The position numbers and the translations under genes are program-made. From a virus, in the IMG/VR virus record IMGVR_UViG_3300032053_000190, positions 1-39,875 of that record: a DNA stretch of 39,875 nt; one strand, given 5' to 3'. Below are positions 6,855 through 39,783 of the stretch, piece after piece. Each line of letters begins with the position of its first letter. Positions within the stretch are counted from its first letter, which is position 1. The notes beneath the pieces are model-generated. The model had not been told where the DNA came from and did not search any database. It saw only the letters and a list, made by a program, of their open reading frames with translations.

Positions 6855-7715
6855 ATGCGTATCGTTTTTGTGGCGGACAATTTTACAGATAAGTATATCG
6901 GCGGATCGGAGTTCTCAATTCAGACGCACATCAATAGCTGTCCGTTTAGCCATATTGAGATTAAGAGTAACGAATTGAATTTGCAGCAGCTAAACAAAGA
7001 AACCGACTTTTTGGTTTTTGGTAATTTTACGGCTTTGCCGCACAATGTTTTCTTGGAGGTACAATCCGGCTGGCGTTACGTAGTTGAGGAGTGTGATTAT
7101 AAATACTGCCTTTACAGGTCAAGTCATAAGCACAGATTCTTCGCCGGAAGGGATTGCGATTGTCATTTGCACAGTGGCTTGGAGATACAGGATTTCTTTA
7201 TGAATGCCCTATACCTATTCTGGAAGTCGGAAAAACAAAGAGACGAATATTCCAGGTTATTTCCGAAACTGAGAAAAGTACAAAGTGAGATTATGGGAGG
7301 GGTCTTTAGTGATGTGGACCTTAATTATATCCTATCGCTTAAAAACAAAAGAAGGGACAATAAATATTTCGTCCTGAAATCGGATAGTTGGATTAAAGGT
7401 TCTCAAGATGCGATTGATTATTGCCATAAAAATAAAATGAGGTTCAGACTTGTCGGCAATGTACCATATCACAAGGTGCTCCGCAAAATGGCAAAGAGCA
7501 AAGGCATAGTTTATCTGCCGAGAGGATTCGACCCATCCTGCCGAATGATTACAGAAGCTAAACTGCTCGGCATTGAGATTATCACCAACGACCTTGTGCA
7601 GCATACAAAGGAGAACTGGTTCAACAACGGCGAGAAGGGGATGCTCGAATTTCTGAAAAGTAGAAACGCAATATTTTGGAAAGTGCTTTATGGATATTTG
7701 GTTGGCAAGTCATAA
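6855..7715 (+). CDS. GT-B-type glycosyltransferase
   Basis: The ATG at 6855 has AAAGG 7 nt upstream and is preferred to an in-frame TTG at 6837. The 286-aa product starts MRIVFVADNF and contains IGGSE, a C-D-C-H segment near residue 95 and a C-terminal nucleotide-sugar-site-like 'YLPRGFDPSCRMITEAKLLG', the form found in GT4-like transferases. It probably transfers a sugar from an activated donor; donor and acceptor are unknown. It is the first gene of the sugar cassette and overlaps the next. An 83-base stretch inside it (7137-7219) recurs at 36633-36715 in another reading frame. Confidence 0.7.
   Translation: MRIVFVADNFTDKYIGGSEFSIQTHINSCPFSHIEIKSNELNLQQLNKETDFLVFGNFTALPHNVFLEVQSGWRYVVEECDYKYCLYRSSHKHRFFAGRDCDCHLHSGLEIQDFFMNALYLFWKSEKQRDEYSRLFPKLRKVQSEIMGGVFSDVDLNYILSLKNKRRDNKYFVLKSDSWIKGSQDAIDYCHKNKMRFRLVGNVPYHKVLRKMAKSKGIVYLPRGFDPSCRMITEAKLLGIEIITNDLVQHTKENWFNNGEKGMLEFLKSRNAIFWKVLYGYLVGKS
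7137..7219. repeat. 83-nt repeat, copy 1 (in glycosyltransferase gene)
   Basis: This stretch matches 36633-36715 at 77 of 83 positions. The first 50 bases are identical, and mismatches fall only at 7187, 7193, 7200, 7211, 7214 and 7215. Here it is read as F-A-G-R-D-C-D-C-H; at 36.6 kb the codon boundaries are shifted by one base. This copy looks like the source because the Cys-Cys-His segment belongs to the transferase type. Confidence 0.9.
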
Positions 7716-28904: not shown

Positions 28905-29048
28905 GGTCTTAGGCATTGCGGCGGCGTGGTAGCCGGACAATGCGATAGAGATTTTGATTGCCAGAGACGAAAGGCGAAATAGAAATCAAAATGGCCTACG
29001 CGGTTGATTGCAGACCAACTGCCCGCAATGCTTTTTATAAAATAGACC
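28905..29048 (+). ncRNA. tRNA-like structured RNA element A
   Basis: Closing stem: GCATTGCGG (28913-28921) with CCGCAATGC (29023-29031), 9 bp, extended outside by GGTCT (28905-28909) with AGACC (29044-29048). One base inside is a D-arm-like hairpin GGC-GTGGTA-GCC (28923-28934), alternatively a 9-bp stem with 28993-29001. A 9-bp arm pairs ATTTTGATT (28951-28959) with AATCAAAAT (28984-28992). Hairpin GCAG-ACCAA-CTGC (29010-29022) abuts the closing stem. A T-run follows. The same architecture is repeated in element B and, in reduced form, near 501-539. No matching known RNA family. Confidence 0.6.
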
Positions 29049-29180
29049 GGCGGCGATGTACCTATCATCGTGGCGGGATTATTGAGGTCAACCACAACAA
29101 CGTATTTTCGATAGGTGATTATACGTTCTTTGTGGCGGGTTACTGTTTCAGTAGAAACGGAAATAATCCTGCCCGCTGGT

Positions 29181-29298
29181 TTGTCCGCATAGAGAAGTGG
29201 GTATCTCTGGCAGGCCTGCCCGCAAGGGTTGAAAGCGACGGTTGCAAGTAACCAACATAAGGCTCTTGCAGTATTGGTTCGATTCCAATGGCGGACAA
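29181..29298 (+). ncRNA. tRNA-like element C: acceptor, D-arm and T-arm but no anticodon arm
   Basis: TTGTCCGC (29181-29188) pairs perfectly with GCGGACAA (29291-29298). After two bases comes a 5-bp D-arm AGAGA-AGTGGGTA-TCTCT (29191-29208) with the GG of tRNA D-loops. The T-arm ATTGG-TTCGATT-CCAAT (29273-29289) is perfect and one base from the acceptor strand. The 64 bases between D-arm and T-arm hold a GGCA-GGCC-TGCC hairpin and a 9-bp arm (29222-29230 with 29261-29269), but no 7-base anticodon loop on a 5-bp stem. It is a decayed tRNA, a tRNA mimic or part of the attachment site. Confidence 0.55.
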
Positions 29299-29315
29299 TT
29301 TGAAAAATTAATAAG

Positions 29316-29451
29316 GCATTGCGGTGGCACGGTAGCCTGACAAGTGGTTCGATTCCACCTGTTTTAATTGGACACTTGGTTGCTCTTGCGAAAGGTTGAA
29401 ACGTCGTAACTGGATTGTTGTTGCAGACCAACTGCCCGCAATGCTTTTTAT
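29316..29451 (+). ncRNA. tRNA-like structured RNA element B
   Basis: Closing stem GCATTGCGG (29316-29324) with CCGCAATGC (29436-29444). D-arm-like hairpin GGC-ACGGTA-GCC (29326-29337). A variable arm includes CAAGTG (29341-29346) with CACTTG (29373-29378) and a T-arm-like GTGG-TTCGATT-CCAC inside it. Hairpin GCAG-ACCAA-CTGC (29423-29435) abuts the closing stem, and TTTTTAT follows. The arm sequences differ from element A while pairing is kept, which suggests selection on structure. No gene between 29452 and 29536; the tract after B (AGACCGGCGGCG at 29458-29469) also follows element A. Confidence 0.6.
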
Positions 29452-36583: not shown

Positions 36584-36799
36584 ATGACAAAGAAAGAAAA
36601 AACAGTAAGATACGTGCGAGGAAATTTTCCGGTTCTTCGCCGGAAGGGATTGCGATTGTCATTTGCACAGTGGCTTGGAGATTCAGGACTTCTTTTTGAA
36701 TGCCCTGTATTTATTGAGGAAATCGGAAGGGATGAGGAAAAACAATCGACTTTACCATTCGATGATGGGACAGAAACAATCAAAGAAGAGGTGATATGA
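36584..36799 (+). CDS. Hypothetical protein, 71 aa, partly built from copied DNA
   Basis: AAGGAG precedes the ATG, and the end overlaps the next gene, so it is expressed. Residues ~17-44 are coded by the 83-nt repeat also present in the glycosyltransferase gene, but read one base out of phase, giving LRRKGLRLSFAQWLGDSG. The C-terminus is acidic (IEEIGRDEEKQS...). No family recognised. It looks like a gene partly created by overprinting. Confidence 0.55.
   Translation: MTKKEKTVRYVRGNFPVLRRKGLRLSFAQWLGDSGLLFECPVFIEEIGRDEEKQSTLPFDDGTETIKEEVI
36633..36715. repeat. 83-nt repeat, copy 2 (frame-shifted use)
   Basis: 77 of 83 bases match 7137-7219, and the first 50 are identical. Codons begin one base earlier than in the first copy. 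A TTCCGG/CCGGAA hairpin straddles its left edge (36627-36645). Confidence 0.9.
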
Positions 36800-38840: not shown

Positions 38841-39647
38841 ATGAAAATAAAAATATGGACACAAGAAGATGTTGATGAAGTAAAACCTAATGAATTGGGC
38901 ATAAGACAATTTCCTGCATATAGCAGCTTCGCAGAGGGGTGCAGCTTCGCAGAGTGGAATAGCTTCGCAGAGTGGAATAGCTTAGCAGAGGGGTGCAGCT
39001 TCGCAAAGGGGTGCAGCTTCGCAAAGGGGTGCAGCTTCGCAAAGTGGAATAGCTTCGCAGAGGGGTGCAGCTTCGCAAAGGGGTGCAGCTTCGCAAAGGG
39101 GTGCAGCTTCGCAGAGTGGAATAGCTTCGCAGAGGGGTGCAGCTTCGCAAAGGGGTGCAGCTTCGCAGAGGGGTGCAGCTTCGCAAAGGGGTGCAGCTTC
39201 GCAAAGGGGTGCAGCTTCGCAGAGAGGTGCAGCTTCGCAAAGAGGTGCAGCTTCGCAAAGAGGTGCAGCTTCGCAGAGGGGTGCAGCTTCGCAGAGGGGT
39301 GCAGCTTCGCAGAGGGGTGCAGCTTCGCAAAGTGGAATAGCTTCGCAGAGTGGTGCAGCTTCGCAGAGGGGTGCAGCTTCGCAAAGTGGAATAGCTTCGC
39401 AGAGGGGTGCAAGGCTGTTTCGCCTTTTTGGAATTATGTTTATGAACCACCTTTTAAGACCGAAGGAAAAATTTTACCAACAGAATTATCTCGGTTTTTT
39501 TGGCAGGAAAAATTATCAAAATGGAAATTAGATTTATCTGGATGTTATTCGGCAATAGATGGCAAAATAAAACCGCATCTAAAAAAGATTCTCAAAGATA
39601 AATCTTGGACAAAATGTGAAAGAAGAATATTGGAAAGCTGGCTTTGA
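38841..39647 (+). CDS. Hexapeptide-repeat protein, 27 copies of S-F-A-[EK]-x-[CN]
   Basis: A 268-aa protein with GAGG before the ATG. Residues 1-28 form a lead-in, residues 29-190 are 27 uninterrupted six-residue units (SFAEGC, SFAKGC, SFAEWN, SFAKRC variants; one SLAEGC), and the C-terminal ~78 residues form a distinct domain (SPFWNYVYEPPF ... KCERRILESWL). The period matches the left-handed beta-helix rule (large hydrophobic, small, x, x, small, x), here with Phe and Cys/Asn stacks. A helical rod with aligned Cys is predicted. Function unknown. Long open frames on the opposite strand are repeat artefacts. Confidence 0.7.
   Translation: MKIKIWTQEDVDEVKPNELGIRQFPAYSSFAEGCSFAEWNSFAEWNSLAEGCSFAKGCSFAKGCSFAKWNSFAEGCSFAKGCSFAKGCSFAEWNSFAEGCSFAKGCSFAEGCSFAKGCSFAKGCSFAERCSFAKRCSFAKRCSFAEGCSFAEGCSFAEGCSFAKWNSFAEWCSFAEGCSFAKWNSFAEGCKAVSPFWNYVYEPPFKTEGKILPTELSRFFWQEKLSKWKLDLSGCYSAIDGKIKPHLKKILKDKSWTKCERRILESWL
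38925..39410. repeat. Tandem 18-bp repeat, 27 units
   Basis: Units of the form AGCTTCGCAGAGGGGTGC run without gaps for 486 bases. They differ mostly at two codons (GAG/AAG; GGG TGC, TGG AAT or AGG TGC). Near-identical synonymous positions point to recent expansion or active homogenisation. Assembly of copy number in such a repeat may be unreliable. Confidence 0.95.
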
Positions 39648-39660
39648 AAGAAGGTGCAAA

Positions 39661-39783
39661 ATGAATAATAGTAGTGAAATACTTATTGTGGTTGGTTTAA
39701 TATTGATAGTAACGGTACGAACCTCTTTGTCCCAAATGTGGCGGAAGGGCATCCCCAAAGATTGCCCGAAATGCCTTTTATAG
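39661..39783 (+). CDS. Small membrane protein, 40 aa
   Basis: AAGGTG precedes the ATG. Residues 6-20 form one membrane segment (ILIVVGLILIVTV) followed by a basic tail with D-C-P-K-C near the end. It runs into the terminal repeat, and its end is repeated at 1-50, confirming continuity across the contig ends. Function unknown. Confidence 0.6.
   Translation: MNNSSEILIVVGLILIVTVRTSLSQMWRKGIPKDCPKCLL

Follow-up and report, generated by a model that had tools for sequence, protein, structure and literature searches.

A family of cloverleaf-folding RNAs between the genes of otherwise unrelated phages

Three copies of a structured element in one phage record

The window, the whole stretch of DNA analysed here, is a 39,875-base virus record (IMGVR_UViG_3300032053_000190) with a 142-base direct terminal repeat and nearly all of its genes on the + strand. 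The ORF calls behind our statements on gene context are crude; the proteins recognised by PHROGs in the window are the terminase large subunit, portal, integrase, an SbcC-like and a RecT-like protein. Two copies of a structured element, A and B, lie downstream of the integrase, where the early region begins, and a third, C, lies just upstream of the terminase-portal operon, both genes of which were named by PHROGs. A and B share an identical 33-base 3' part and a 30-base 5' part that is 87% identical, and the sequence GCAGACCAACTGC has three exact matches in the window. The copies were scored with two covariance models, R1, built from ten members of the family described below with the helices P1, D-arm and last hairpin, and R2, which adds P2 and rests on 25 members. 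The features are as follows.

28913-29031, + strand: element A, full cloverleaf (R1 82.4 bits, R2 67.3 bits)
28913-28921 / 29023-29031, + strand: A closing stem P1, GCATTGCGG / CCGCAATGC
28923-28934, + strand: A D-arm, GGC-GTGGTA-GCC
from 28936, + strand: A P2
29010-29022, + strand: A last hairpin, GCAGACCAACTGC
29032-29036, + strand: T-run directly after A P1, seen in the sequence and not conserved in the family
29316-29444, + strand: element B (R1 86.3 bits, R2 70.3 bits)
29316-29324 / 29436-29444, + strand: B closing stem P1
29326-29337, + strand: B D-arm
29339-29343 / 29418-29422, + strand: B P2
29344-29358, + strand: B apical hairpin like a tRNA T-arm, GTGGTTCGATTCCAC, by its T-arm motif
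29423-29435, + strand: B last hairpin
29445-29449, + strand: T-run directly after B P1, seen in the sequence and not conserved in the family
439-544, + strand: element C, a full-length, more diverged copy (R1 24.8 bits, E=5.4e-4)
within element C, + strand: C closing stem, ATATAGTG / CACAATAT, with one A-A mismatch
457-461 / 518-522, + strand: C P2, GATAA / TTATC
485-499, + strand: C T-arm-like hairpin, AAGGTTCGAATCCTT
523-535, + strand: C last hairpin

A reading made earlier from the sequence only had taken C for a reduced copy at 501-539; its full extent was recovered by R1, in whose building C was not used. The R2 score of C is higher, 45.6 bits, but C belongs to the R2 training set. Minimum-free-energy folding gives ambiguous results when applied to the window copies alone; sequence comparison decided the structure.

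The spacer between A and B holds another structured stretch (29182-29293), which a possible ORF overlaps in its 5' part. It is closed by the stem TTGTCCGC/GCGGACAA; inside are a hairpin resembling a D-arm and, adjoining the closing stem, a canonical T-arm, ATTGGTTCGATTCCAAT. The models detected no family member in the spacer and neither ARAGORN nor Rfam a tRNA there, and ARAGORN found no tRNA in the whole window. We rejected the idea that 29182-29291 is a tRNA fragment of an attachment site, as it had no match in 392 genomes and no match to a tRNA model.

Homologues in viral contigs

The family comprises 27 distinct sequences of 68-151 nt from about 23 distinct virus records and one metagenome-assembled bacterial contig, with only one to three copies per phage. 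One element shared by loci L009, L011 and L014 and another shared by L033 and L036 were each counted once. The first pattern run on viral contigs fixed only the 3' side of the D-arm and GCAGACCAACTGC, leaving P1 free. All nine stretches that it returned were real: their sequence differs outside the fixed bases, yet P1 pairs, and does so with a sequence different from that of the window copies. Looser patterns added L029-L033, L035, L037, L047, L073, L074, L077, L078, L084, L088 and L135. In the two loosest scans P1 paired at 8 of 8 bases in real members, compared with 3-5 of 8 in chance matches.

A strict pattern run on 85,000 bacterial genomes gave 13 matches, 12 of them without a closing stem; the single real one, L018, has the closing stem and is a short contig of an Anaerolineaceae assembly. 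Scanning 392 genomes of one phylum (centred on a Planctomycetia assembly) and 301 of another (centred on that Anaerolineaceae assembly) yielded no new member; L018 was found again, and L097 was discarded as a false positive without the conserved hairpin. Isolate phages gave short chance matches only, and the plasmids searched gave no member. One 21-base match in an isolate phage falls in a region annotated as tRNA-Met, probably reflecting the T-arm motif. R2 run on 700 kb of phage sequence detected one further plausible weak copy (L131, 4697-4811, E=0.0019) with D-arm GAG-GTTGTA-CTC and loop ACTAA, in a 203-kb phage that is the same record as L029.

Searches of the window and of the elements of eight loci against Rfam 15 yielded nothing at the gathering level, and a scan at E up to 10 that covered 26 elements, 27 short stretches and the A-B spacer gave no convincing match. 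A partial literature search of open-access full texts found no description of the family. This is a previously uncatalogued RNA family that fits no family tested, and its mechanism could still be of a known kind. The sequence-only reading had recognised no known RNA family and had proposed that structured RNAs, repeated in the window, form a family in which selection maintains pairing. Both views held when a covariance model was built, Rfam was compared and homologues were sought: none of the members tested matched Rfam, and the homologues carry compensatory changes.

Compensatory changes in four helices

The consensus runs P1, one nucleotide, D-arm, one nucleotide, P2, last hairpin, P1. P1 is variable (5-13 bp) and is followed by a 1-nt linker, usually U; the D-arm has 3 bp and the loop nnGGUA; P2 begins with a G-U (22) or G-C (5) pair, continues with an invariant A-U pair and carries a variable apex of 21-90 nt; the last hairpin, of 4 bp with the loop ACCAA, abuts P1. 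Compensatory changes were first counted on an alignment made without any model. They occur in all four helices, at 16 of 21 pairs (147 cells; shuffles, 0/500), with a covariation score of 0.655 against 0.07-0.14 in slid controls, the alignments A3 and A4 having been fitted to models with most of these pairs, so that counts lean towards them. By helix, the pairs with a compensatory change are 9/9 in P1, 2/3 in the D-arm, 3/5 in P2 and 2/4 in the last hairpin, where only L135 and the weak candidate in L131 supply the changes; 95% of cells are paired. The cleanest test is P2 on A3, since R1 lacks P2.

The inner arms change locally. The D-arm stem GGC/GCC becomes GGG/CCC in L073, L077, L078 and L088 and GAC/GTC in L084, with the last hairpin unchanged in each. 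In L135, CCC-GACCAA-GGG replaces GCAG-ACCAA-CTGC and the loop ACCAA is kept. Judged by comparison of sequences, these many paired changes show an RNA family predicted to fold as a cloverleaf in otherwise unrelated phages.

RNAalifold first gave one long irregular stem. We rejected this fold: its core pairs lack covariation, the GGG/CCC members break two of them, and the local change of the hairpin stem in L135 also stands against it. By energy folding alone L029, L007, L013 and L078 reach the cloverleaf hairpins, L078 with altered inner arms, and several other members prefer the single-stem alternative.

The sense strand shows 37 GU wobbles as against 5 AC mismatches (15 against 5 when the first P2 pair is excluded), indicating that the sense RNA is the folded strand. 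The neighbouring genes are mostly co-oriented with the element, upstream in 21/24 and downstream in 21/25 cases. From this bias and this orientation we take it that the element acts as RNA. Integron attC sites are variable inverted repeats with a variable apex that lie between genes, and the family resembles them in outline, being an intergenic, covarying inverted repeat with variable sequence and apex. Terminase, portal or head genes are near neighbours of five members, while many members lie elsewhere. The outline and these five positions would suit a folded single-stranded DNA site for attC-like recombination, packaging or replication. The strand-biased wobble and the co-oriented neighbours point to RNA instead, the D-arm is a separate hairpin, as is the last one, and no cassette array was seen, all of which differs from attC; we regard a DNA site as very unlikely. 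The packaging RNA of phi29 (pRNA) likewise has a closing stem and two loops able to pair. It differs in having a three-way junction and in belonging to phi29-like phages with their own ATPase, whereas the family has a four-way junction, up to three copies per phage and ordinary terminases.

Conserved loops and likeness to tRNA

GGUA of the D-arm loop and ACCAA of the last hairpin are near-constant, an invariance that is partly ascertained, as the pattern searches fixed the loops and under-sampled loop variants. The two loops could pair as UGGU/ACCA or as GGU/ACC, the latter in nearly all members. Their GG and CC are invariant, which makes covariation uninformative here, and one scan that freed both loops returned no compensated pair. 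By analogy with the contact between the D- and T-loops of tRNA, we infer that the loops may kiss through GGU/ACC.

Four helices with compensatory changes stand in the order of tRNA, and the tRNA-like branching of the sequence-only reading is thereby upheld in both its parts, the D-arm-like hairpin and the last hairpin that abuts the closing stem. With tRNA and tRNA-like RNAs (RF00005, viral TLS, mascRNA) the family shares the succession of closing stem, D-arm, middle arm and abutting last hairpin, and with tRNA also the D-loop-like GGUA, the potential loop-loop contact and the T-arm-like hairpins of some apices, the canonical T-arm motif GGTTYRANNCC occurring in 7/27 apices against a mean of 0.013 in shuffled ones. 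In tRNA, however, a 7-nt T-loop sits beside a 7-bp acceptor stem, and there are a CCA end and an anticodon arm; the family has the 5-nt ACCAA, a closing stem of 5-13 bp followed by a 1-nt linker, no conserved CCA after P1, no anticodon and a variable apex. The length range of P1 and the missing CCA end make ordinary tRNA processing unlikely. RF00005 matched none of 26 element stretches except L078, at 21.5 bits, below the threshold of 29. Folded by energy, L078 (1672-1777) forms additional arms, among them a T-arm and one like an anticodon arm.

Genomic context and cis-acting alternatives

Members lie between genes, mostly in sense, in both early and late regions, and the flanking genes serve replication, recombination, methylation and packaging. 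The usual order is stop codon (2-20 nt away in many members), element and the ribosome-binding site of the next gene. Some positions depart from it: L009 lies in a 3' UTR at an operon end that faces a convergent gene, and L135 lies at a gene end, with a long hairpin and its T-run downstream. The place between stop codon and ribosome-binding site on the sense strand, together with the free sequence of the closing stem, would suit a compact intercistronic knot, acting as a barrier to exonucleases or as the mark of a processing site and thereby setting the levels of the flanking mRNA, and the 3' UTR positions fit it too. A plain stability hairpin would not need the conserved GGUA and ACCAA, and one to three copies per phage are few for such a role; we consider the knot rather unlikely, yet a close rival of the reading that we favour below.

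The sequence-only reading treated the T-run as a defining feature and listed processed terminators among the possible roles. A U-run directly follows P1 in A, B, C, L006, L009, L033 and a few others, about 8/27, which does not define the family. An intrinsic terminator with an elaborate loop thus accords with a minority of members, L009 at its convergent junction among them. About two thirds of members lack the U-run, several lie inside operons just before the next gene, and L012 and L135 have a separate terminator-like hairpin downstream; for the family as a whole the terminator reading is already unlikely, and we give it very little weight. Intrinsic terminators directly downstream of members are not enriched either (2/25), on which ground we rejected attenuator terminators. 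A ligand-binding riboswitch-like leader, suggested by the conserved loops and the frequent place before genes, is the least probable of the explanations considered: we found neither a consistent class of downstream gene nor a consistent expression platform, and some members lie in 3' UTRs.

To our knowledge few phage RNA elements that work without a protein are known, and put is the textbook case. In HK022 it consists of two adjacent stem-loops, ~70 nt in all (PMC9378689). The family is like put in being a short phage RNA that apparently needs no phage protein and is present in few copies per phage. No protein is common to the 15 phages compared, the widest clusters (methyltransferase, terminase-like) occurring in five, and a shared trans-acting phage protein as partner was discarded. 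Such a spread is expected of an RNA that acts on host polymerase, where the nascent RNA would dock and suppress pausing or termination without a protein. Several positions also suit this mode of action: L012, between terminase and portal, is preceded by TTGACA-17-TATATT and followed by a terminator-like hairpin, giving the order promoter, element, terminator, late genes; in L032 a promoter-like TTGACT-17-TATAAT lies 12 bases upstream of the element; A and B stand at the start of the early region and C just before the late operon. The architecture, however, is unlike put, a closed four-way junction in place of two adjacent stem-loops, and both the lack of terminator enrichment and the members at operon 3' ends (L009, L135) speak against it. 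A short-motif scan of the HK022 early region was empty and R1 had no match in the region examined, so homology with put was rejected. We think a put-like cis element unlikely, slightly more so than the knot, and it too is a close rival of the favoured reading.

A possible RNA gene addressing the host

We tentatively favour, short of calling it probable, a reading in which the element is a gene for an RNA and lies within transcription units of the phage, as the tRNA genes of phages do; its product may engage a conserved host machine. The fixed loops, the free stems, the absence of a phage partner and the positions early and late, 5' and 3', argue for it, and L009 in its convergent 3' UTR and L135 before a terminator fit it better than they fit a 5' leader. 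A cis element also fits, as most members are tightly placed between stop codon and ribosome-binding site. In the favoured scheme some phages would transcribe the RNA from a promoter of its own and others would carry it within a polycistronic RNA. The last hairpin would stack on P1 and the D-arm on P2, and the kissing GGU and ACC loops would close a compact, L-like body resembling the tRNA elbow. This elbow, GGUA with ACCAA, might be presented to an RNA-binding machine of the host, be it a tRNA-handling factor, RNA polymerase or the ribosome, and the variable arms would only hold the RNA body together.

A bolder proposal, which we judge unlikely and no better placed than the put-like one, is that a phage-specific tRNA-shaped RNA passes among unrelated phages and takes over or blocks a conserved tRNA- or RNA-handling machine of the host, possibly as an anti-defence decoy. 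Here the Watson-Crick kissing of GGU and ACC would form the elbow in place of the D/T-loop fold, and the defence decoyed would be one that targets tRNA. Of the roles listed in the sequence-only reading, tRNA mimic, decoy and regulatory RNA would each fit, and the shape speaks for tRNA-likeness.

Fixed loops with fully changing stems, in phages without a common protein, suggest an RNA that is probably of general use through host machinery. Through its firm structure and searchable model the family may lead directly to a target that phages have in the host.

Other repeats in the window

Two stretches of the terminal repeat (18-50 and 39751-39783) are 67% alike to the 3' end of the elements (GGGCAT...ATGCCTTTTATAG); the covariance models had no match at either. 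A 96-base stretch occurs twice, at 7137-7232 and 36633-36728, with 91% identity, inside two different predicted ORFs and apparently in different frames. Between 38833 and 39500 an 18-base repeat that encodes SFAEGC/SFAKGC occurs 25 times; the repetitive ORF in which it lies (38841-39647) is open in several frames.
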